DNA of 60,106 bases from a virus. The translations under genes were made by a program, and so were the position numbers. The stretch covers positions 1 through 60,106 of the IMG/VR virus record IMGVR_UViG_3300027736_000049; one strand, 5' to 3'. The notes beneath the pieces were generated by a model that saw only the letters and a program-made list of their open reading frames with translations, was not told where the DNA came from and made no database searches. Within the stretch, counting starts at the first letter, position 1. Each line of letters begins with the position of its first letter. This document shows positions 19,529-39,594 of this stretch, in pieces.

Positions 19529-20209
19529 ATGGTTTCGACCTATACCACCAACAAGCGCATCGAAAAGCCCGCCAATAACGATTATATCGACACATGGAAC
19601 GTCCCCGTTAATAACGACTGGGACATCATCGACAGGGCCTTTGGCGGCACCTACACGGTCTCGCTGACGAACGCCAACGTCACGCTGACGCAGACCAACG
19701 TGCAGAACACCTGCATCCTGTTGCAAGGTGTGTTGACGGCCAACGTGACCGTCTACTTCCCCTCCGGCGTGTCGGGCTTCTACATCATCAACAACGCCAC
19801 CACTGGGGCGTTTACTGTCACACTGCTTTCGGCTGGCGGTTCTCCCGGTCGCGGTATCACGGCTGGGCAGGGCTCCTACACGATTATCTGGTCTGATGGA
19901 AGCAATGTGGATCTTGCCACCAACGCCGCTTTGACGGCTGGTTCTGGCATCAGCATCGTGGGCAATACTGTCTCAATTGATACCCCTCTCTCCACCATCT
20001 ACGGCGGCACGGGACAGAGCGTTTACACCAACGGGCAGCTTCTGATCGGCAACAGCGCCTCTGGGTTGCTGGTTCCCGCTACGCTGACCGCTGGGGCAAA
20101 TATCACTATCACGAACGGCAACGGTACGATCACCATCGCCTCAACTGGCGGCTCTGGTGGCCCTATACCCAATCCCTTTGGTGTCGCCTACATTATGGCT
20201 GGTGTCTGA
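19529..20209 (+). CDS. Tail/fibre-type structural protein
   Basis: A 226-aa beta-rich protein, last gene of the rightward late block. The N-terminus (NKRIEKPANNDYIDTWNVPVN, with NNDWDIIDRAFGG) is an attachment motif seen in phage fibre proteins. The centre is Thr/Asn/Val-rich beta sheet, and STIYGGTGQSVYTNGQLLIGN is a recurrent fibre-shaft motif. The 3' end overlaps the convergent GcrA-like gene by about 69 bases. Confidence 0.8.
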   Translation: MVSTYTTNKRIEKPANNDYIDTWNVPVNNDWDIIDRAFGGTYTVSLTNANVTLTQTNVQNTCILLQGVLTANVTVYFPSGVSGFYIINNATTGAFTVTLLSAGGSPGRGITAGQGSYTIIWSDGSNVDLATNAALTAGSGISIVGNTVSIDTPLSTIYGGTGQSVYTNGQLLIGNSASGLLVPATLTAGANITITNGNGTITIASTGGSGGPIPNPFGVAYIMAGV

Positions 20210-20659
20210 TCTGGGCTTTAGGGTGTAGTAGCACAATGCTCTGTGCTGTCGGCAGTACGACTTCCCCGTTTTTGGCTCTCCGCAATAGCGGGTATTTTCG
20301 CCATTTACGGGCCCAAGAATGTAGCGGCAGGATTTGGGCGTAAGCTCAAAGATTGTGATCCCGCCATCCAGTTTTGGCGGTTTGGGCAACGGTGCGGGTA
20401 TCGGTGCGGGTTTATGTACCTTAATCTTGGGCTCAATTGGCCTTGGGTTTTTCACCATTGGCTTCACCTCTTCCTGCGGCTGCGCAACAGTAACCACTTT
20501 TTTTGCTACCCTGTGGAAAACTCGTCCTTTTTCCTTAAACCTGTGGATAACTCCCATAACTGTCCCGCGAGTTACCCCAAGGCTTTTGGCTATTTCTGTA
20601 CTAGACAGCCCGCTAACTTCCCACATTTCAGCAATTAGCTCATTCCGTTCTTGCGGCAT
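20141..20659 (-). CDS. gcrA: GcrA-like cell-cycle transcription regulator
   Basis: A 172-aa protein. Residues 1-45 form a helix-turn-helix (IAEMWEVSGLSSTEIAKSLG, TRGTVMGVIHRF) matching the GcrA DNA-binding domain. A Pro/Lys-rich linker follows, then CRYILGPV...RYCGEP..GKSYCRQH (about 110-145), the Cys/His block that in GcrA contacts sigma-70. In Caulobacter and relatives GcrA activates sigma-70 promoters near methylated GANTC sites. This phage copy is last in the leftward early operon and overlaps a convergent tail gene. It likely redirects host cell-cycle promoters or times phage transcription. Confidence 0.85.
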   Translation of the reverse strand: MPQERNELIAEMWEVSGLSSTEIAKSLGVTRGTVMGVIHRFKEKGRVFHRVAKKVVTVAQPQEEVKPMVKNPRPIEPKIKVHKPAPIPAPLPKPPKLDGGITIFELTPKSCRYILGPVNGENTRYCGEPKTGKSYCRQHRALCYYTLKPRSDTSHNVGDTKGIGYRATRAAS

Positions 20660-20849
20660 TTCTCTTCTTTTCCCTCTGTGGTGGATCAGGCAGCGACATC
20701 CAATGAGTTGGTTGCGGATTTAGGGCCCCATCAGTGCCCGTGTCCCACACACCGCAGCAAAAGAACACGATTTCCACCCATCGCCCGTTCCACCCCAAAA
20801 TCCAGTTTCCGTCTTGGGGGGCCGTGTCCATTGTTTGCCATTCGGTCAT
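20640..20849 (-). CDS. DUF551-like small protein
   Basis: A 69-aa protein starting MTEWQTMDTAPQDG, the signature opening of DUF551, and ending PTHWMSLPDPP. One of three related genes in this operon (also 22503 and 24419). The C-terminus overlaps the GcrA start by 20 bases. Function is unknown; such proteins are common in phage early regions. Confidence 0.85.
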   Translation of the reverse strand: MTEWQTMDTAPQDGNWILGWNGRWVEIVFFCCGVWDTGTDGALNPQPTHWMSLPDPPQREKKRNAARTE

Positions 20850-20871
20850 GTTGCGCCCTCTCAAGTTAAGT

Positions 20872-20897
20872 GCAGATGGGGCCGCAGTCCCACCTGC
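20872..20897 (-). terminator. Hairpin between early genes, possible weak terminator or processing site
   Basis: A nine-pair stem (one G-U pair) with an 8-base loop: GCAGGTGGG and CCCATCTGC on the minus strand. It lies in a 62-base gap of an operon that otherwise has almost no gaps. No U-run follows, so termination would be partial; it may instead protect or process mRNA. Confidence 0.4.
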
Positions 20898-20911
20898 CTG
20901 TTAACCCTACC

Positions 20912-21244
20912 TCACATCCCGTCGTCAGTCGGAGCGTCAGCAACAGATTTTCTAGCCATTTCGGCAATTTCGTGCTCAAGCATATCGGCTGTCGCAAACA
21001 TCCCCGCAAAGGCAAAATAGTTGATCCCGTCAACATACGAATCTAAATTGCCCCTATCGCCTTCAAGCCTTCCTAGCTTGCAAGCGTGCATAATCATGGC
21101 AATGTCGTATGGCGTGATTGGCTTGTTGAGCAACAATGTGGCGATCTTTGCCTGCCGCTCCAGTGTCTTCTTCATGTCGCCATACTGGCTGGCGCGATCA
21201 TGAAACACTTCAATAGTCCGTGTCATTACCTCTTGATATTCCAT
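20912..21244 (-). CDS. DUF6378-like phage protein
   Basis: A 110-aa protein; start at MEYQEVMTRTIEVF, preceded by AAGGAAAAGGGG. RASQYGDMKKTLERQAKI, ITPYDIAMIMHACKLGRLEG and DSYVDGINYFAFAG match the pattern of DUF6378, a small helical family common in phages (YGD...A..., MM..K..R..., DS..D...Y). Function is unknown; a relation to MazG-like nucleotide pyrophosphatase folds is possible but unproven. Confidence 0.8.
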   Translation of the reverse strand: MEYQEVMTRTIEVFHDRASQYGDMKKTLERQAKIATLLLNKPITPYDIAMIMHACKLGRLEGDRGNLDSYVDGINYFAFAGMFATADMLEHEIAEMARKSVADAPTDDGM

Positions 21245-21260
21245 TGCTGGCCCCTTTTCC

Positions 21261-21491
21261 TTATTGAAATTCGTCGTAGATGCGGACTTTTCCGACGTAG
21301 TGCTGGTTGATAAGTAATTTTCCTCCGTTTTGTAGCTCTCCGTTTTCGCGTTTCCATTCTGTGACCATGATGAAATCCTCTTGGTGCAGAACGTTCTGAA
21401 ACTCTTCCAGTGTTTTTGCAGGGTAATCTCCGACGATTTGATGAGACATGCCATTTTTAGTCGGTACATTTAGTGTGATGAAGAATTTCAT
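21261..21491 (-). CDS. Hypothetical early protein
   Basis: A 76-aa protein starting MKFFITLNVPTKNG with ribosome site AGGGGTC. Predicted mixed alpha/beta, with EWKRENGEL and a Tyr/Asp-rich end. No family recognised. It follows the tightly packed leftward order. Confidence 0.75.
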   Translation of the reverse strand: MKFFITLNVPTKNGMSHQIVGDYPAKTLEEFQNVLHQEDFIMVTEWKRENGELQNGGKLLINQHYVGKVRIYDEFQ

Positions 21492-21921: not shown

Positions 21922-22020
21922 TTAGCCTCCCGCCACAATGCAGATGGTGAAGATCGCCACTATGGCTATGCCAGTGGCGAAAATGTTGGCGGCTTCATAG
22001 GCTAGGTCCAAGGCTTTCAT
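21922..22020 (-). CDS. 32-aa membrane microprotein
   Basis: Encodes MKALDLAYEAANIFATGIAI then VAIFTICIVAGG. A perfect AAGGAG site sits 7 bases before the ATG. The second half is a single hydrophobic helix, so this is likely a one-pass inner-membrane peptide. Its start overlaps the DnaA-like gene's 3' end by 26 bases. Role unknown; such early peptides often inhibit host processes. Confidence 0.72.
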   Translation of the reverse strand: MKALDLAYEAANIFATGIAIVAIFTICIVAGG

Positions 22021-22498
22021 TTGATTTCTCCTTTTCGATGCAACCACTATGCACCGCAATTTCTTTAGGAAAGCTTAACAGCGGCAAATTATTTCGCTTT
22101 GCATGTTGGCGAACGGCATGGAGGATCGTCGTGTGGTCTCGCTTGCCCAATATCAGCCCCACCATAGGCAGGGATAGGTTGAGCCTCTTTTTGATTTCAT
22201 ATGCCGCTTCCTGACGGGCTCTTGCGTATTTCCATTTTCGACTTTGCCCAGTTATGTCCTTTGCCGTCATCTCATGCTTGATTGCGATTTCCTTCAAAAT
22301 GGCCTGCGCAGGCGTTAAAGGGATGAACAAGCGCGGCATCTTTGGTTTTTCAGGTTCCGGCTCTGGCTCCGGCTCTGGCTCTGGCTCAGGGGCCAGTAGA
22401 ATAATCGGCTGAATGACGATTGGCTTCTTTGGGGGCGCGTATCTCAGACGCTCCCGGACGGCTTTGTAGTGCGCCTGCATTTCTTCAATCGTTTGCAT
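21995..22498 (-). CDS. DnaA domain-IV-like DNA-binding protein
   Basis: A 167-aa protein. Residues about 100-140 carry RQEAAYEIKKRLNLSLPMVG followed by LGKRDHTTILHAVRQH, the DnaA domain IV signature that reads DnaA boxes. The AAA+ ATPase domain of full DnaA is absent. The N-terminal part has a short coiled coil and an acidic-proline spacer of six or seven Glu-Pro units. ATG 22498 is the likely start. It may act at the phage origin or compete with host DnaA for boxes. Confidence 0.85.
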   Translation of the reverse strand: MQTIEEMQAHYKAVRERLRYAPPKKPIVIQPIILLAPEPEPEPEPEPEPEKPKMPRLFIPLTPAQAILKEIAIKHEMTAKDITGQSRKWKYARARQEAAYEIKKRLNLSLPMVGLILGKRDHTTILHAVRQHAKRNNLPLLSFPKEIAVHSGCIEKEKSNESLGPSL

Positions 22499-22502
22499 AA
22501 GG

Positions 22503-22982
22503 TTATTCCTTTGGCGGGTTTGGCAACAACATCCAGTGGGTTGGCTTACGTTTTTCATAAAATGTTTGCTCAATCCACCACATCCCGCCCGCAAAGCACC
22601 CGATAAGAATACCCCCATCCTCACAAAACACCAGAATTTCTGTATCATCCCTTGGCGCGGTTTCTATAGGTTGCCATTCAGCATACATAACATACCCATG
22701 TTTATGCATGTTTTCTTGCCAAAGTTCTGTCATGGAACGATGGGTTTTGCGCAATGCGTTAAGAGCGCGTGTTTGGGCTTCATATTCACTTAACAAACGC
22801 GCATCGGCATGTTCTTCCCAATGCCGTTTGGTTGACAGTTCATGCTCATAGGGAAGATTGGCGCACAGATACTCATATTGCCCCATAACCATCAATGCGT
22901 TTTTTGAAGCTTCATCTTTGCTATCTAGTAAAGCTTCATATTTCGCACGATAGTTCAGTTGTTCTTTGAGCCATTTAAACAT
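22503..22982 (-). CDS. Coiled-coil protein with C-terminal DUF551-like domain
   Basis: A 159-aa protein. The first 100 residues are charged helix (WLKEQLNYRAKYEALLDSKD). The C-terminal third, from EWQPIETAPRDDTEILVF to PTHWMLLPNPPKE, is a DUF551-type domain as in the genes at 20640 and 24419. The start overlaps the upstream stop (GAAGATGTTTAA). Looks like a fusion of a small coiled-coil protein and DUF551. Confidence 0.78.
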   Translation of the reverse strand: MFKWLKEQLNYRAKYEALLDSKDEASKNALMVMGQYEYLCANLPYEHELSTKRHWEEHADARLLSEYEAQTRALNALRKTHRSMTELWQENMHKHGYVMYAEWQPIETAPRDDTEILVFCEDGGILIGCFAGGMWWIEQTFYEKRKPTHWMLLPNPPKE

Positions 22983-25464: not shown

Positions 25465-26022
25465 TTAAGTGATGTTCATGTCTCTATAGAACTCAAACTC
25501 GGCTGCTTGCATTTCAGGGGTCCACGCTTCATGCGAGACCCCCATTTCTGTAATGTCAGGCAATGGCGGGTTTACTTTCTTATTCTTTTTAATTTGCCTG
25601 AGCCCCTTTTTTTCAAATTTACGAGCAAACTTTCGGCAGATTATTTGAACGCTTGTTCTGCTAAGTTTGTATTCTTCCGCCAAAACTTTCTGTGTTTCTC
25701 CAGCCACCCATCGGTTGTATATATTTTGATTGCGTTCCGGGGGGATAGGTGGCCTTGCGTTCAGCAAAGTCACCCCCTGCTTCTTAAGGATTTCGCAAAC
25801 AATTTGTTTGCTGATCCCGTAATCAACGCATAAATCAAGAATTTTTCTGCCTTTTTTGTAGCCATCAGCTATATTTTTATTGCGCGTTTCAGTCCCATTT
25901 AACGTTGTGTAATGCCGCGCCACTTTCTTGTAATATTCAATGTCGCCTTCAAACCTTTGGCGCTCAACACCATCAACGTACAAGCGGCCATTGACCCAGC
26001 GCGCATCTAACTCATGGCTCAT
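25465..26022 (-). CDS. DNA-binding protein with two helix-turn-helix segments
   Basis: A 185-aa basic protein starting MSHELDARWVNGRLYVDGVE. Two HTH-like segments are visible: KKGRKILDLCVDYGISKQIV (about 55-85) and WVAGETQKVLAEEYKLSRTS (about 105-130), the second resembling Mor/resolvase-type HTH. A Lys-rich tail follows. A transcription or replication regulator is likely; targets are unknown. Confidence 0.75.
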   Translation of the reverse strand: MSHELDARWVNGRLYVDGVERQRFEGDIEYYKKVARHYTTLNGTETRNKNIADGYKKGRKILDLCVDYGISKQIVCEILKKQGVTLLNARPPIPPERNQNIYNRWVAGETQKVLAEEYKLSRTSVQIICRKFARKFEKKGLRQIKKNKKVNPPLPDITEMGVSHEAWTPEMQAAEFEFYRDMNIT

Positions 26023-26257
26023 CTTCTTCCTCCATCGCATACAAAACGTCTTCAGCCCCATCGGCTATCTTTTCCAACTTGTCCTTCATTTTGCCCGGCA
26101 TGTAATCAATGGTTAAAATGACGTATTTTGCATATGACTCAAGCTCATCAATACGATTGCTAACTTCGACAATTGCCAAAGCCTCGTCTTTCCATCCTTC
26201 TTTTGTAAGAACTACGGCGGCTGCGTTAAGGCGCTCCGCTAGGTATTGGTTCATCAT
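26012..26257 (-). CDS. Small helical acidic protein
   Basis: An 81-aa protein starting MMNQYLAERLNAAAVVLTKE, with helix IVEVSNRIDELESYA, loosely like the repeated coiled-coil family. The acidic tail MEEEDEP is encoded by a GGAGGAAGA stretch that also serves as ribosome site for the next gene. Confidence 0.72.
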   Translation of the reverse strand: MMNQYLAERLNAAAVVLTKEGWKDEALAIVEVSNRIDELESYAKYVILTIDYMPGKMKDKLEKIADGAEDVLYAMEEEDEP

Positions 26258-31539: not shown

Positions 31540-31623
31540 TCCGTTCGATCAACACTTGCAATATGGGTGATTTGCTGGCAGTTTGCAACAGCCAAATGTT
31601 AAAAACCCACATGGGATTGCAAA
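31540..31623. promoter_or_regulatory. Divergent early control region with three TTGCAA sites
   Basis: An 84-base gap between the leftward recombination operon and the rightward Cro-like gene. The self-complementary hexamer TTGCAA occurs at 31556, 31583 and 31617, spaced 27 and 34 bases. ATATGGGT (31561) is echoed by ACCCACAT (31605). A leftward promoter could use TTGCAA at 31583-31588 and CATATT at 31560-31565 (17-base spacing). The adjacent HTH protein is the obvious candidate to bind here. Confidence 0.55.
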
Positions 31624-31806
31624 ATGCTAACAATCGAACAGATAAGGCTTGCCCTGCGAGACCGGAGGATTAGCATGGTCTCCGCCGCGACTGGCTTGCA
31701 TTACAACACCATCAGAGCCTTGCGGGATAATGAAAGCGCCAATCCAAGCTATAAAGTTTTGAAGGCTTTGAGTGACTATTTTGAGGGGGCAAAGCAACAT
31801 GGCTGA
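31624..31806 (+). CDS. Cro/CI-like small repressor
   Basis: A 60-aa protein that is essentially one helix-turn-helix: MLTIEQIRLALRDRRISMVS then ATGLHYNTIRALRDNESANP and a closing helix. It resembles phage Cro-type DNA-binding proteins. No strong ribosome site precedes ATG 31624. Its end overlaps the primase-helicase start by 8 bases. Expected to bind the TTGCAA region just upstream and balance the two early directions. Confidence 0.8.
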   Translation: MLTIEQIRLALRDRRISMVSAATGLHYNTIRALRDNESANPSYKVLKALSDYFEGAKQHG

Positions 31807-33814
31807 TTTGACGGACATTTTAGGTGGCCCGTGGTCCCCGCCAACCGCTGTTAATCTTGGAACCCCAGAGGAACAGTTATCCACAGCTATGTCTGGGTGC
31901 GGCATTTTGCCACCCAAAGAGATCCTGCTAGATGGGAAAGTTCACCGCTTTAACTCAGGCACCAAAGGCTCAGGTGGGCACGGCGACAAGGCTGGCTGGT
32001 ATGTGGCTTTCTCGGACGGCATTCCAGCCGGACGCTTTGGTTGCTGGCGCGCAGGCATCGAATCCACATGGCGAGCCGACATAGGCCGCAAGTTCACCCA
32101 TACCGAAGAAATGGCCCACGTCCGCCGTATGGGCGAGGCCAAAGCCCTCAGAGACGCCGAGAACGCCAGAAAACAGGAAGTCGCCGCCAACACCGTCGAA
32201 GCCATCTGGGTCGACTGCGGTTTTGCTAACGAAGACCATCCTTATCTAAAAACCAAGGGCATCAAGACCCATGGCGCCCGCGTCACAGGTGACGGGCGCC
32301 TAGTCGTCCCCCTGTTCGATCAGGCCGGGAATCTCTCCAGCCTCCAATACATCGCCGTAGATGGCGGCAAGCTCTACCACTCCGGCGCACAGACGGGCTC
32401 TCGCTTCTGGCAAATCGGCACCCTAGACGAGCCCGGCACCCTCTACGTCGCCGAGGGCTTCGCAACCGCCGCGACCATCCACGAAGCCACAAACCGCCCC
32501 TGCATTGTAGCCTACTCCGCCTCCAACCTCGTCCCCGTCACCGGCATCCTGCGCGAGATCCACGGGGCCACGCAGGACATCGTGATCGTGGCCGACAATG
32601 ACGCCTCCGGCGTTGGCCAGCGATACGCTGAGCAGGCGTCGGCCAAGTTCGGGGCTCGCATGGTTATGCCGCCAGAGCCGGGCGATGCCAATGACTACGT
32701 TCAAGCTGGGCACGATCTGGCGGCGCTCTTGTTCCCGCCAAAAGACAATTGGCTAATTCCCGCCGATGACTTCTGCGCCCAGCCCGCGCCTATCTCATGG
32801 CTTGTCAAGCATTGGCTGCAAGACAAAGCCCTGATCATGGTCCACGGCCCTTCCGGCGGCGGCAAAACCTTCGTAGTGCTGGATTGGTGCCTACGCATGG
32901 CGGCGGGCGTTTCAGAATGGGCAGGCCACCGCGTTAGAACGGGAACGGTTGTCTACCTTGCGGGCGAGGGGCATCACGGCCTGCGGGGGCGCGTAGCCGC
33001 TTGGAAAGTCCACCAGAACGCCGGGCCGCTATCCATGTGGCTCTCCCGCGACGGATGCGATCTCAATACACCGGCTGGCTACATGCGGGTGGTGGATAAC
33101 ATCCGCGCCCTCCCAAATCGGCCCAGCATTATCGTGGTGGATACCTTGCACCGCTTCCTGCTCGGTGACGAAAACTCCGCCCAAGACGCGAAGACCATGC
33201 TCGACGCCTGCGGGGCGCTGATGGCGGAGTTTGAGTGTTCGGTCTTGCTTGTCCACCATACTGGCGTCAGCGAAGAGGCCCAGCATAGGGCGCGTGGCTC
33301 ATCGGCATGGCGGGGGGCTCTGGACATCGAGATCAGTATCGTCCCCGGCAAGGACGACCAACCCATGTCGATCATCCAGCGCAAGTCCAAGGACAGCGAG
33401 CTGGCAGACCCGGTTTATGCCGAGCTTACGTCTGTGACGATACCCGGTTGGTTTGACGAGGACGAGCAGCCAGTCACGAGCGCGGTCGTGAGCCTCGTGG
33501 AGGCCCCCGTGGTGGCTAAGAAGGAGAGTAAAGTTGAGGGGCTGCGTAAGCAATTTGTAGCCGCTTGGTATGACTCAAAGGCTGAGGAACGCGAGGGGTT
33601 GCCTTATGTGAGCCGGTCAGCTTTGAAGCACTTTCTGGTGGCCAATTTGAATTGTAGCGAGGCGACAGCGGACAAGAAGCTGAAGCCGGGGTCAGCGGAC
33701 CAGCTTATTGGTGCGCTCTTAATTGCAGAAATTATCAGCCCATTTGAGAATGGGTGGATCGTTAGTAATGAAGTTTGCGCATCTGCCATGTTGATGGACA
33801 AGAATAAAAGGTAA
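31799..33814 (+). CDS. Primase-helicase (Toprim plus RepA-type hexameric helicase)
   Basis: A 671-aa protein; GAGGGGG precedes ATG 31799. The N-terminal part (to about residue 200) precedes a Toprim domain with LYVAEGFATAATI (about 213-226) and IVIVADNDASG (about 260-271). A RecA-like helicase follows: Walker A GPSGGGKT at 350-357, VVYLAGEGHHG, Walker B SIIVVDTLHRF, then LLVHHTG and ARGSSAWRGA. The C-terminal 100 residues may be a winged-helix adaptor. With no phage DNA polymerase visible, it likely loads the host replicase. Confidence 0.92.
   Translation: MADLTDILGGPWSPPTAVNLGTPEEQLSTAMSGCGILPPKEILLDGKVHRFNSGTKGSGGHGDKAGWYVAFSDGIPAGRFGCWRAGIESTWRADIGRKFTHTEEMAHVRRMGEAKALRDAENARKQEVAANTVEAIWVDCGFANEDHPYLKTKGIKTHGARVTGDGRLVVPLFDQAGNLSSLQYIAVDGGKLYHSGAQTGSRFWQIGTLDEPGTLYVAEGFATAATIHEATNRPCIVAYSASNLVPVTGILREIHGATQDIVIVADNDASGVGQRYAEQASAKFGARMVMPPEPGDANDYVQAGHDLAALLFPPKDNWLIPADDFCAQPAPISWLVKHWLQDKALIMVHGPSGGGKTFVVLDWCLRMAAGVSEWAGHRVRTGTVVYLAGEGHHGLRGRVAAWKVHQNAGPLSMWLSRDGCDLNTPAGYMRVVDNIRALPNRPSIIVVDTLHRFLLGDENSAQDAKTMLDACGALMAEFECSVLLVHHTGVSEEAQHRARGSSAWRGALDIEISIVPGKDDQPMSIIQRKSKDSELADPVYAELTSVTIPGWFDEDEQPVTSAVVSLVEAPVVAKKESKVEGLRKQFVAAWYDSKAEEREGLPYVSRSALKHFLVANLNCSEATADKKLKPGSADQLIGALLIAEIISPFENGWIVSNEVCASAMLMDKNKR
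31877..31885 (+). promoter_or_regulatory. Perfect DnaA-box sequence
   Basis: TTATCCACA, the consensus DnaA box, lies inside the 5' end of the primase-helicase gene. Further exact copies on the opposite strand are at 3483-3491, 20542-20550 and 37316-37324, with a one-mismatch copy at 20512-20520. Because the phage encodes a DnaA domain-IV protein, these may be functional, though all lie in coding sequence. Confidence 0.4.
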
Positions 33815-33827
33815 TTGCCATGCTCAA

Positions 33828-34015
33828 CCGTACCGTACCGTACTTTTGGCGTACTAGTACGTTTTGGTACGTTTTTGGCTTATTGCTTAGCTCAACCGTA
33901 CCGGCGTACCGTACCGTACTTTTGCGTACTGGTACGTTTAGGGGCAAAACGCCCGAAAACGTACCGTACCGTACTCCCCCCCTTTAGGGGGGGTACGGCG
34001 GTACGGTCGGTGCGG
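33828..34015. repeat. GTAC-rich array, candidate replication origin
   Basis: Seventeen GTAC tetramers lie between 33830 and 34004, where fewer than one is expected by chance. Many are in CCGTA repeats of period 5 (33829-33843, 33909-33919, 33960-33974). Two longer direct copies begin CTCAACCGTACC at 33823 and 33891. The last part contains C7-TTTA-G7 (33975-33992), flanked by GTACCGTAC and TACGGCGGTACGG, so it can fold into one long hairpin; GGGC-AAAAC-GCCC at 33942-33954 is a smaller one. The array directly follows the primase-helicase. An 80-codon frame through it is repeat-driven and not listed as a gene. Confidence 0.75.
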
Positions 34016-34030
34016 CGGATAGTCCGGACG

Positions 34031-34055
34031 AAAAAACCAGCCCGGAGGCTGGTTT
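34031..34055 (-). terminator. Rho-independent terminator of the leftward methyltransferase operon
   Basis: On the minus strand AAACCAGCC, loop TCCG, GGCTGGTTT make a perfect 9-pair stem that runs into TTTTTT. It sits 9 bases after the stop of the HTH gene at 34064 and just before the GTAC array. It would keep this transcript from crossing the array. Confidence 0.85.
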
Positions 34056-34063
34056 GAAGTTGG

Positions 34064-34264
34064 TCACTTGTTCAACTGCTGGGCCAGCCAGTCAATGTCG
34101 ATCTTGCCCGCCTCTAGGGCCGCCAGCAGGATCAGGACGGCCCGTGGTGGCTCCCAGCCACCCGCCCGCCATGTCTCCACCGTGCGGACCCCGCACCCCG
34201 TCAGGAGGGCTAGGTCCGCCACAGTGAGGCCGAGCCGGATCATCTGGGCCTTGATGGGGGTCAT
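34064..34264 (-). CDS. Small helix-turn-helix protein
   Basis: A 66-aa protein starting MTPIKAQMIRLGLTVADLAL, ribosome site GGAGA. LGLTVADLALLTG and VRTVETWRAGG form a compact HTH resembling XRE or YdaS types. Its start overlaps the methyltransferase stop (ATGA). Likely a regulator, possibly of the palindromic promoters that drive this operon. Confidence 0.78.
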   Translation of the reverse strand: MTPIKAQMIRLGLTVADLALLTGCGVRTVETWRAGGWEPPRAVLILLAALEAGKIDIDWLAQQLNK

Positions 34265-35292
34265 GGCTGGGTCTCCATAAATGCTTTGATCACTTCTGCC
34301 GCGACTTGCGGGACGATGGCGTTGCCGTAGGCGCGCAGGCGTCCCACGCGGTTGGATACCCCATGAGCCAGCAGACAAATGCTGGGTTCAACGCGCCGGG
34401 CCTTGCCGTCGGCTCCGGTGAGCCAGATGTGGTCGTCCCAGAATGAACCAGCGCACCCAGATCCGTTATCGCTCCGTCCGGTTTTCGCCCCTTCCTTTTC
34501 AGGAAGCTCTCCCCGTCTCCCCCGCATGGCTGAGACGTTGGCGTTGGCCATGTGGACAGGTTGTGCATTACCGTGCTGGGAAGGTCGTCCAGACGGCCCT
34601 TGCGAGCCATCTCCTTCACGCATCCCTCCGGCGTTCGAGATCCTTTGTCCCCGTCCACTGAGCGTGGTGTCGGCCATGTGGTCCGCGCCAGCTCCGGCAG
34701 TGTCCACCCGGCCCTGTGAGCCGCCTCCGGCGTTCTGTTGCCCGTCCTGCCGTTCCCGTTCTTCTCGTCCGATGACCGAGGCGTTGGCCACGTCGAGTGC
34801 GACCCAGTAGAGGCGCTGGCGAATGTGCGGGGCGTTGACCGCGAGAGCCGGAATATCTGCCGCCCGGCTGGAGTAGCCAGTTCCTTCCAGATTAGATTGA
34901 ACTCCATCGAACCATCCGTACCCAGCCTTTCCCGCAACTTGCTCCCCCATGACGACAGGGGGCCTGACGGCGGCGATGAGGCGATGGAAGTGGGGCCACA
35001 GGTGCCTCGGATCGTCTGTACCGGCTCCTTTGCCCGCGACGGAGAACGGCTGGCACGGACAGCTCCCCGTCCAGATTGGCCGGTCGTCTGGCCATCCGGC
35101 GAGTCGGAGGGCGTGTCCCCATCCGCCGATCCCGGCGAAAAAGTGGCACTGGGTGAAGCCTCTGAGGTCATCAGGTGCCACATCGACAATTGACCGGGTA
35201 TCGACTTCGCCATCGGGTATCAATCCTGCTTTGATCAAGTTGCGTAGCCATTGGGCTGCGTAGGGTTCGATCTCGTTGTAGTAGGAGGTCAT
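34261..35292 (-). CDS. DNA (cytosine-5) methyltransferase
   Basis: A 343-aa protein. Motif I FFAGIGGWGHALRLAGW (51-67) binds AdoMet. Motif IV GSCPCQPFS has catalytic C80. Motif VI is GEQV where ENV is usual; APHIRQRLYWV is motif VIII; motif X is RLRAYGNAIVPQVA near the end. The segment between VIII and IX is a low-complexity repeat with VANA, MADT and MANAN. It probably methylates phage DNA against restriction; no restriction partner is seen. A second long frame overlaps most of it. Confidence 0.92.
   Translation of the reverse strand: MTSYYNEIEPYAAQWLRNLIKAGLIPDGEVDTRSIVDVAPDDLRGFTQCHFFAGIGGWGHALRLAGWPDDRPIWTGSCPCQPFSVAGKGAGTDDPRHLWPHFHRLIAAVRPPVVMGEQVAGKAGYGWFDGVQSNLEGTGYSSRAADIPALAVNAPHIRQRLYWVALDVANASVIGREERERQDGQQNAGGGSQGRVDTAGAGADHMADTTLSGRGQRISNAGGMREGDGSQGPSGRPSQHGNAQPVHMANANVSAMRGRRGELPEKEGAKTGRSDNGSGCAGSFWDDHIWLTGADGKARRVEPSICLLAHGVSNRVGRLRAYGNAIVPQVAAEVIKAFMETQP
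34290..35213 (-). CDS. Overprinted frame within methyltransferase (WPTP-repeat protein)
   Basis: A 307-codon frame on the same strand as the methyltransferase, in a different phase, covering about 90% of it without a stop. It encodes KLRERLGTDGSMEFNLIWKE, three TWPTP repeats with RTPE/G, and an end NPAFVCWLMGYP...TATPSSRKSR. I recall this series of motifs from many annotated phage proteins, so the frame seems conserved in its own right. It could be a real overlapping gene or a shadow preserved by methyltransferase conservation. No strong ribosome site at the first ATG. Confidence 0.4.
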   Translation of the reverse strand: MAKSIPGQLSMWHLMTSEASPSATFSPGSADGDTPSDSPDGQTTGQSGRGAVRASRSPSRAKEPVQTIRGTCGPTSIASSPPSGPLSSWGSKLRERLGTDGSMEFNLIWKELATPAGRQIFRLSRSTPRTFASASTGSHSTWPTPRSSDEKNGNGRTGNRTPEAAHRAGWTLPELARTTWPTPRSVDGDKGSRTPEGCVKEMARKGRLDDLPSTVMHNLSTWPTPTSQPCGGDGESFLKRKGRKPDGAITDLGALVHSGTTTSGSPEPTARPGALNPAFVCWLMGYPTAWDACAPTATPSSRKSRQK

Positions 35293-36394: not shown

Positions 36395-36430
36395 TGTTGT
36401 GTTCCTGTTTGCTTGCGTTGTTGATGTCCT

Positions 36431-36460
36431 ATCTTTATCCCGCAGTTTCTGCGGGGTCAA
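36431..36460 (-). promoter_or_regulatory. Second promoter with CCCGCAG/CTGCGGG palindrome
   Basis: On the minus strand -35 is TTGACC (36460-36455). The perfect 7-pair palindrome CCCGCAG-N3-CTGCGGG (36439-36455) occupies the spacer. The -10 region (TAAAGA or AAAGAT at 36431-36437) is weak. It matches the arrangement at 36057-36086, including the following GCGATTTATTTT-type sequence, so the two look duplicated. Confidence 0.6.
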
Positions 36461-36514
36461 GCGGGAATTCGCATATTCGCGGCGATTTTGCGATTTATTT
36501 TGCGATTTATTTTT

Positions 36515-36566
36515 GGGGGCCATTTTGGGGGCTATTTCGGGGAAGTTTCGGGGGGAGTTTTGGGGG
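36515..36566 (+). repeat. Five evenly spaced G-runs (G-quadruplex-type block) before terminase
   Basis: Runs of G are at 36515-36519, 36527-36531, 36539-36542, 36550-36555 and 36562-36566, separated by 7, 7, 7 and 6 bases, giving a near-12-base period. This satisfies the standard G-quadruplex pattern (four or more runs, loops of 7 or less). GCGATTTATTTT-like repeats lie just before (36490-36514). It sits 38 bases before the first late gene and about 155 before the small terminase. The rest of 36461-36603 holds no gene; a late promoter was not identified. Confidence 0.7.
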
Positions 36567-36603
36567 TTATTGCGCTTCGCCTCGCCCTCGCCTATCTTTA
36601 GCC

Positions 36604-36789
36604 ATGGAATTGGTGGACAAGATTGCGCTGGCGCTTTGCGGATATGGCTTGCCCGGTGAGCCCTGCGAAACGCCATGCGAGTTTTGTTTAGGTCAAGCTA
36701 ACGCAGTTATGAAGGTGATCAATGGCCACTCCGAAAAAGAAACCAGAGGATCTGTTGAAGGTCGGAAGACCAAGCGGGTATCGGCCTGA
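36604..36789 (+). CDS. Small Cys-containing protein, first gene of the late block
   Basis: A 61-aa protein starting MELVDKIALALCGYGLPGEP. CETPCEFCLGQA gives a C-x3-C-x2-C cluster that could bind metal. Its 3' end overlaps the small-terminase start by 68 bases in another frame. Unknown role; it may assist packaging. Confidence 0.6.
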   Translation: MELVDKIALALCGYGLPGEPCETPCEFCLGQANAVMKVINGHSEKETRGSVEGRKTKRVSA

Positions 36790-37195: not shown

Positions 37196-38840
37196 TCTCC
37201 CGCGCGACATCGACGGCAAGGCGAGCCTGCGGGCGATCCAGAAGCGGCGCTGCGAGCTGTCGCTGGCCACGTTCATCAAGCAGGCGTGGCACGTCGTCGA
37301 GCCCGGCCAGCCGTTTGTGGATAACTGGCATATCGGGTTAATTTGCGCCCACCTTGAGGCGATCACAGACGGCCACGTTCTCGATGATGGCTCGCTTTAT
37401 AACCGCTTATTAATAAACGTAATACCCGGTGCAATGAAATCAATGATTTGCAACGTGTTTTGGCCCAGTTGGGAATGGGGGCCGAAGAACATGCCCCACA
37501 TGCGCTACATTTGCGCCGCCCATCAGCAGGGCCTCGCGATCCGTGACAGCACCAAGATGCGCCGCCTCGTTACCTCCAAATGGTATCAGGACCGTTGGGG
37601 CGACCGGGTAAAGTTGACCGGCGATCAGAACGCCAAGACTAAGTTTGAAACGACCGCTACAGGTTTTCGCGAAGCGATGGCCGCTGGCTCAATCACAGGG
37701 TCTCGTGGTGATCGCGTGATTATTGATGACCCTCACAGCGTCGAGGGTGCAAACAGCGAGGCCATGCGCCACACGACGCTCGAATGGTTCACTGAAGCCG
37801 TCCCGACGCGCCTCAACAACCCAAAGACCAGCGCCATCGTCGTCATCATGCAGCGGCTGCACGAAGAAGACGTGTCGGGCGTAATCCTAGAGCGCAAGGG
37901 CTTTCAAGGCGTCTACGACCATATCTGCCTGCCCATGCGCTACGAGGCATGGCGGTCAGGCGTTGCAACCAAGCTGGGCTATCTCGACCCTCGTGAGGAG
38001 GAGGGCGAACTGCTCTTCCCGCAGCGGTTCCCGCCCGAAGTGGTGGACCGCGACGAGGCGGCAATGGGCCCGTATGCCGTCGCCAGCCAGCACCAGCAAG
38101 TCCCTTCGCCTCGTGGCGGTAATGTGGTCAAGGACAGTTGGTGGCAGCTTTGGGAGCAAAGCCACTTTCCCAGCCTCGACTTCGTGGTGGCCAGCATTGA
38201 CACCGCCTACAGCACGAAGGCGGAGGAGCGCGGCGACTTCAGCGCTATGACCGTCTGGGGCGTCTTCAGCGGCGATCCCGCCGCCACCGCGACCCGCAGC
38301 GTTGACCGCTACGGCAAGGGCTTTGACGGCTACGTCAACACGTCCTACACCTCAGACCTGAACGCTGTCCCGCGCGTGATCCTCATGCGGGCGTGGGCCG
38401 AACGGCTAGAGTTGCACGAGCTGGTCGAGAAGATCGCCAAGGACTGCAAGGCTCTGAAGGTGGACAAGCTGCTAATCGAAAACAAGGCGGCAGGTCACAG
38501 CGTGGCGCAGGAAATCCGCAGGCTGTTCAGCCACGAGCCGTGGGCCGTCCAGATGTACGACCCCAAGTCCATCGACAAGCTGGGCAGGCTCTACAGCGTC
38601 CAGCATCTGTTTGCCGAGGGCATGATCTACGCGCCCGGCGTCACATGGGCCGAGGCCGTCATCCGGCAAGTCTCCAGCTTCCCGCGTGGCAAGCATGACG
38701 ACTTGGTTGACACAGTGTCAATGGCTTTGCGACATCTGCGAGACCTCGGCCTCCTCACCCGCAGCCCCGAAAGGCTGGCGGAAATCCACGAAAGCAAGAG
38801 CCAATATGGAAAAGCTCCCCCTCCTCTCTACGACGCCTGA
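37182..38840 (+). CDS. terL: Terminase large subunit
   Basis: A 552-aa DNA-packaging ATPase-nuclease. ATG 37182 overlaps the small subunit by 14 bases. The Walker-A-like NVIPGAMKSM is near residue 82, Walker B VIIDDPHS near 179, and the coupling motif VVIMQRLHEEDVSG follows. The RNase-H-like nuclease begins VASIDTAYS (about 336) and has a final Asp pair in GKHDDLVD (about 505). It docks on the portal, pumps DNA and cuts concatemers. Confidence 0.94.
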   Translation: MGKIDLPRDIDGKASLRAIQKRRCELSLATFIKQAWHVVEPGQPFVDNWHIGLICAHLEAITDGHVLDDGSLYNRLLINVIPGAMKSMICNVFWPSWEWGPKNMPHMRYICAAHQQGLAIRDSTKMRRLVTSKWYQDRWGDRVKLTGDQNAKTKFETTATGFREAMAAGSITGSRGDRVIIDDPHSVEGANSEAMRHTTLEWFTEAVPTRLNNPKTSAIVVIMQRLHEEDVSGVILERKGFQGVYDHICLPMRYEAWRSGVATKLGYLDPREEEGELLFPQRFPPEVVDRDEAAMGPYAVASQHQQVPSPRGGNVVKDSWWQLWEQSHFPSLDFVVASIDTAYSTKAEERGDFSAMTVWGVFSGDPAATATRSVDRYGKGFDGYVNTSYTSDLNAVPRVILMRAWAERLELHELVEKIAKDCKALKVDKLLIENKAAGHSVAQEIRRLFSHEPWAVQMYDPKSIDKLGRLYSVQHLFAEGMIYAPGVTWAEAVIRQVSSFPRGKHDDLVDTVSMALRHLRDLGLLTRSPERLAEIHESKSQYGKAPPPLYDA

Positions 38841-39594
38841 CCGGGTCAAGACCATAAGGACAATTAGCTGGTTTTCCTGTGGTGCGGCTAGCGCCGTCGC
38901 CACAAAACTTGCGCTCAAATTATATGAAAATGTTGTTGTAGTTTATTGCGAGACGGGGGCCGAACATCCGGATAATGAGCGTTTCATGTCCGAATGCGAG
39001 CGTTGGTTTGGCGTTTCAATTCGGCGGGTCAAGTCAGACGAATATGCCGATACATGGGATGTCTGGAAAAAAAGGAAGTATCTTGCGGGCATCAATGGGG
39101 CCCCCTGCACTGTTGAGCTAAAAGTTGCACCCCGTTTGGCTTTCCAGCACCCGAGCGATCACCATGTTTTCGGATACACTCACGATAAGCCGGACATGGA
39201 TCGGGCGGATCGCCTTCGCGCCAATTACCCAGAGATGACCATTTTGACGCCGTTAATTGACAATGCTTTGAACAAGGAATCTTGTCTTGGAATGCTTCAG
39301 TCGGTTGGGATCGGCCTGCCGCCTATGTATGCCATGGGGTTTCAGAACAACAACTGCATCCCATGTGTAAAGGCTACCAGCCCAGCCTATTGGGCTTTGG
39401 TCCGCAAAGAGTTTCCCGATCACTTTGCGCGCATGGTTAAGCTATCTCGGGAGCTTGAAGTTCGCTTGTGCCGGATTAAAGGGGTGCGCTCATTCATTGA
39501 CGAAATCCCTTTTGATCATCCAACAACGAACGCAATGTCGCCTAGCTGCGATTTTTTGTGCCATTTGATCGAACAGGAGCTAGAGAACAAATGA
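38806..39594 (+). CDS. PAPS-reductase-like PP-loop enzyme
   Basis: A 262-aa protein whose start overlaps the terL 3' end. The PP-loop is WFSCGAASAVATKLAL (S24-C-G-A-A-S29), a phage-type variant of SGGxDS that binds ATP. VVYCETGAEHPDNERF follows as in adenine nucleotide alpha-hydrolases. CTVELKVAP and NNNCIPCVKATSP carry cysteines. Known relatives include CysH, DndC and thiolation enzymes, but nothing here assigns a substrate. Between packaging and portal genes it may modify DNA or RNA, or act in sulphur metabolism. Confidence 0.85.
   Translation: MEKLPLLSTTPDRVKTIRTISWFSCGAASAVATKLALKLYENVVVVYCETGAEHPDNERFMSECERWFGVSIRRVKSDEYADTWDVWKKRKYLAGINGAPCTVELKVAPRLAFQHPSDHHVFGYTHDKPDMDRADRLRANYPEMTILTPLIDNALNKESCLGMLQSVGIGLPPMYAMGFQNNNCIPCVKATSPAYWALVRKEFPDHFARMVKLSRELEVRLCRIKGVRSFIDEIPFDHPTTNAMSPSCDFLCHLIEQELENK

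Follow-up and report, generated by a model that had tools for sequence, protein, structure and literature searches.

GcrA is known as a protein of Alphaproteobacteria, and a phage gene of this family at the end of an early operon raises the question of which promoters its product would serve, and whether it would still read the methylated site that host GcrA reads. In many Alphaproteobacteria GcrA steers RNA polymerase to methylated promoters (host mechanism reviewed in PMC7403470). Phage-borne forms have been known since 2012, when gp222 of phiCbK was described (PMC3556154), and include Atu_ph08 gp5 (PMC6630229) and Pam5 gp57 (PMC9382816); a survey of alphaproteobacterial phages reported GcrA motifs without positional bias (PMC9437464). 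This literature proposes a role in the control of the host or of lysogeny, without a tested mechanism. The window, which is the whole stretch of 60,106 bases of an IMG/VR virus record, holds one GcrA.

The gene at 20141-20659 (minus strand) belongs to the GcrA family, as a preliminary description of this DNA had proposed with exactly these coordinates. It is an open reading frame with an ATG start and encodes 172 amino acids, of which residues 2-146 match positions 4-147 of the PF07750 profile above threshold (E 7.3e-17; 62.6 bits against a cut-off of 26.9). A phmmer search of the PDB returned 7ye1_G (1.3e-13), 5yix_B (the SID) and 5yiu_A (the DBD), all of them Caulobacter GcrA. Compared with L002 (80% identity), gcrA has a dN/dS of 0.23, so it is not a chance reading frame. 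Its HTH and SID parts are both constrained, and the HTH part is under purifying selection (dN 0.14, dS 0.64). Because a home-made codon-model gene caller passed over the gene, its support comes from homology, synteny and selection and not from codon usage.

The position of the gene is that of the preliminary description, at the end of the early operon: gcrA is the last, 3′-most gene of a leftward block delimited by gene order and functions (31539 to 20141, minus strand). Its 3′ end shares 69 bp with a convergent tail-fibre gene at 19529-20209 (plus strand; PHROG tail fibre, 1.6e-11). At its other end, a small reading frame at 20640-20864 (minus strand), also found in L002, overlaps the gcrA start by 20 bp, and translational coupling of the two is possible. 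The operon continues upstream with a DUF6378 gene at 20912-21469 (minus strand), which has homologues in L002, L003, L004 and L083, and with a protein consisting only of DnaA domain IV at 21995-22648 (minus strand; PF08299, 1.4e-15; TIGR00362). With a DnaA-domain protein encoded in the same operon as gcrA, the phage may intervene in the cell-cycle control of its host.

The DnaA-type gene also occurs in L002 and L003; Caulobacter phage RW has a DnaA-domain gene (gp042), and GcrA-like and DnaA-like genes are found together in the Synechococcus phages L209 (OM868079) and PP438432, despite the alphaproteobacterial association of GcrA. Two DnaA-box-like sequences lie within the gcrA coding sequence, at 20512-20520 (TTTTCCACA) and 20542-20550 (TTATCCACA), and the second is unchanged in L002, L003, L004, L083 and L214, although divergence at synonymous sites is high. 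Perfect DnaA boxes number four in the window against 0.25 in simulated sequence, in a post hoc count. Dense GTAC-rich direct and inverted repeats at 33814-34007 (CGTACCGTACCGTAC), downstream of the primase gene and near the GC-skew minimum, are a possible replication origin. Another candidate late regulator is encoded at 25465-26061 (minus strand); this protein contains two stretches resembling an HTH and weakly matches Mor as well as late activators of phages.

The place of gcrA is conserved among related phages, in which the preliminary description had suggested that the gene be sought. A GcrA query against viral contigs retrieved L002, L003, L004 and L019 (L083 and L019 come from a single contig). 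Since such a query favours relatives that carry gcrA, the tail-fibre gene was used as a query as well. Each of the 11 loci that match it over a long stretch (at least 53% identity over at least 200 residues; L211-L221), four on contigs already found and seven new, carries a convergent gcrA within about 1.2 kb, as does a more distant tail-fibre relative (L235) at the corresponding place. The named relative MW202675 is without GcrA; most relatives found with the portal gene are fragments, in which presence of gcrA cannot be judged.

The protein shows the layout of the GcrA family: an HTH (residues 1-49; 20513-20659, minus strand, from alignments and the structure model), a disordered linker (about 56-98), a sigma-interacting-type domain (99-147; 20219-20365, minus strand, from the PDB match and Foldseek) and a tail. 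AlphaFold2, given an alignment of the window protein, its relatives and hosts in which the phage rows came from the loci only and not from GenBank phages, predicts the two domains with confidence and the linker with low confidence (mostly pLDDT below 70). The top Foldseek match is 7ye1_G, weak by its E-value of 4e-3; the C-terminal domain can be aligned with 5yix_B in 47 columns (rmsd 2.0; TM 0.82 by target length). With VIA-align the same comparison scores Z 5.4 (rmsd 2.0, 47 residues); common small folds score as high, and the sequence match therefore carries more weight. Comparison with host structures, as the preliminary description had advised, thus finds both folds kept, and its Cys block is there too, as C111, C126, C136 and H139. 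The modelled HTH also resembles those of many regulators, DeoR, SorC and KorA included, as would be expected if the protein were a plain HTH regulator, such as an early-to-late repressor, in which the GcrA-like Cys/His domain is structural and sigma contact is gone. W120, P121, D124, P125 and F130 of the SID are changed, in agreement with this reading. However, the full two-domain layout is found in 12 phage members and the C-terminal domain matches 5yix_B, and an ordinary regulator is quite unlikely.

Where the phage protein departs from its host counterparts is in individual residues, whose importance was judged by conservation in 120 host-genome rows, some of which may be near-copies or prophage genes. 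Numbers are counted along the Caulobacter sequence, in agreement with the T10 allele of PMC3667746, unless window numbering is indicated. The recognition helix reads R31-G-T-V-M-G-V-I-H-R40 (window numbering) against R33-N-A-V-I-G-K-V-H-R42 in the host. In the DNA-binding part W3 (120/120 host rows), N34 (119/120) and K39 (120/120) are replaced, and in the sigma-binding part W120 (116/120), P121, P125 and F130 (119/120 each); the canonical set W3, N34, K39, W120 and P121 is thus absent, with five of five replaced. R33, G38, H41, R42, C118, C133, G134, C143 and H146 are kept. All 12 phage members have lost W3 and retain the three Cys and the His; N34 and K39 are mostly lost. The HTH described earlier as intact is therefore intact in fold but not in the residues that are near-invariant in hosts. 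The four changes in the sigma-binding part may bear on the loss of sigma-contacting residues, which the preliminary description had named as refuting its proposal.

These changes bear on two further explanations. The first is that of a true GcrA acting early on host DNA, which would activate methylated-GANTC S-phase promoters and so make replication enzymes available, the role proposed for phiCbK gp222 (PMC3556154). The HTH fold, R31, G36, H39 and R40 (window numbering), the Cys block and the DnaA-domain protein in the operon are consistent with it. However, W3, N34 and K39 are lost though invariant or nearly so in the host rows, phiCbK keeps W3 and K39, and the protein falls short of the NCBIfam equivalog cut-off for canonical cell-cycle GcrA (NF050816; 57.2 against 280 bits), all of which makes this role unlikely. 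The second is a competitor of host GcrA, which would fill its site on sigma domain 2 and silence the methylation-dependent programme while itself activating little or nothing. Here the SID-type domain would be kept while the DNA-reading residues have changed; moreover, HTH-only relatives in Caulobacter phage RW and in the L055 phage indicate that phages use the parts of GcrA separately. Against a pure sigma blocker, the HTH is under purifying selection and keeps R31, G36 and R40 (window numbering), which such a protein would not need, and W120 and P121, conserved in the SID of hosts, are changed, so that a competitor is doubtful.

The preliminary description linked the gene to GANTC sites and CcrM methylation, and this link did not hold. 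GANTC occurs 25 times in the window against 100 expected under a second-order model, the lowest ratio of 16 similar palindromes, and GAATC/GATTC seven times against about 63. When the sites were mapped relative to gene starts, as it had suggested, six of the 25 lay in the 150 bp preceding a start (chance 18.8%, p 0.32), with starts taken from the crude home-made caller that missed gcrA itself. For the main promoter regions, the other outcome named in the preliminary description as refuting its proposal, a lack of GANTC near any phage promoter, does apply: no GANTC was found at 31540-31800, 33815-34063, 36395-36721 or 20660-20911, so that neither the divergent early promoter region nor the region upstream of the late operon contains one. 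The last-named region, upstream of the terminase genes (36395-36721, plus strand), is likewise free of GANTC in five near relatives (L021, L022, L023, L024 and L069), judged on the 330 bp that precede the terminase small subunit. Projected onto relatives, the surviving sites are retained in 21% of cases, and control palindromes in 21-23%. Depleted, not enriched near starts and without excess conservation, GANTC was rejected as the site of the phage GcrA. For a true GcrA acting on the host these counts would be irrelevant.

The record gave no match to a CcrM-type N6 methylase (PF01555), although it may be incomplete; its C5-cytosine DNA methylase, at 34261-35292 (minus strand), is not of the CcrM type. 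The avoidance of GANTC is not caused by gcrA: across relatives the observed/expected ratio runs from 0 in L074 (0/32), where no gcrA was found, to 1.02 in L026, where gcrA is present, and no link between the two is seen. The avoidance may instead reflect restriction. GANTC is nearly absent (0 to 2 sites, 3 to 105 expected) from L057, L061, L065-L068, L072, L074, L076 and MW202675, which form one set of the phage family of the window, and CCNGG ranks next after GANTC in avoidance within the window (ratio 0.50). CtrA sites (TTAA-N7-TTAA) are absent from the window. Several of these pattern counts are post hoc.

A promoter scan of 19.4-39.0 kb gave 18 sigma-70-like sites against 14 ± 3.5 by chance, with none on the plus strand in the stretch immediately before the terminase genes, and no binding motif for the phage GcrA was found. 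Some relatives share a conserved AT-rich block at 36430-36520 (TCGCATATTCGC..GCGATTTTGCGA), just upstream of the terminase genes, and a small Cys-rich reading frame just 5′ of them (36604-36789, plus strand). A phosphoadenosine phosphosulfate reductase-like gene lies between terminase and portal (38686-39594, plus strand).

The host is probably an alphaproteobacterium, as indicated by the presence of GcrA and by relatives of the portal and terminase, which come from phages of Caulobacter, Roseobacter, Pelagibacter, Paracoccus and Rhizobium; the remaining terminase matches are to gammaproteobacterial phages. A quick tree sets six phage rows apart by a long branch (SH-aLRT 95); the phage branches are very long, and long-branch warnings apply. 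A scan of genome contigs with the phage GcrA alignment found no relative, and the best match in 385 alphaproteobacterial genomes reached 66 bits. As far as sampled, recent capture from a host is not supported, and the window protein appears to represent a phage-specific lineage, long diverged and far from all sampled host GcrAs.

Known proteins frame this divergence. Caulobacter crescentus GcrA (PF07750; 7YE1, 5YIX, 5YIU) shares the HTH, disordered linker, SID-type domain and C/C/C/H set at about 29% identity; in contrast to it, the window protein is without W3, N34, K39, W120, P121, P125 and F130, and its gene sits in a phage early operon of a genome that avoids GANTC. The GcrAs of phiCbK (gp222) and other Caulobacter giant phages are likewise phage-borne members of PF07750, with 25-29% identity to the window protein, but that of phiCbK, which retains the W-P motif as well as W3 and K39, has a different position in the tree. 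Pseudanabaena phage Pam5 gp57 (31% identity) also lacks W3 and K39 and comes from another phage type. Agrobacterium phage Atu_ph08 gp5, annotated as a phage GcrA, is reported to be 89.74% identical to an Agrobacterium protein (PMC6630229). Caulobacter phage RW gp061 is a GcrA-type HTH encoded close to where the early block ends, adjoining convergent late genes as in the window; unlike the window protein, it has 105 amino acids and no Cys/SID part.

The analysis establishes membership of the GcrA family, a layout in two domains, purifying selection, a conserved gene position, altered residues and avoidance of GANTC. The reading preferred here, tentatively and at a little under even odds, is that of a GcrA-family phage regulator acting early as a sigma-70 cofactor whose DNA recognition has been re-specified, probably for a non-GANTC site. 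Of the earlier interpretation it keeps the family, operon end, folds, Cys block and relatives and drops the tie to GANTC and CcrM. From its operon position gcrA would be expressed early; the C-terminal domain would dock on domain 2 of the primary sigma factor of the host, and the N-terminal HTH would direct sigma-bound polymerase to particular promoters, or stabilise it there, as host GcrA does. Both the altered recognition helix and the lack of GANTC speak for a site other than that of the host, and with recognition re-specified methylated GANTC would no longer be read. Likely targets would be middle or late promoters of the phage, or a host promoter set with another motif. A more speculative and rather unlikely extension is that a phage lineage has made GcrA into a sigma-70 cofactor for its own use, with a new site that does not depend on methylation, and has cleared its own DNA of GANTC, leaving little for host GcrA and CcrM to act on.

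Phage GcrA was already known, and what is new here is a diverged lineage with altered residues and a retained fold. Diverged yet conserved as a set, it has changed both DNA-reading and sigma-side residues, and could show whether phages borrow or escape the methylation-transcription code of their hosts.
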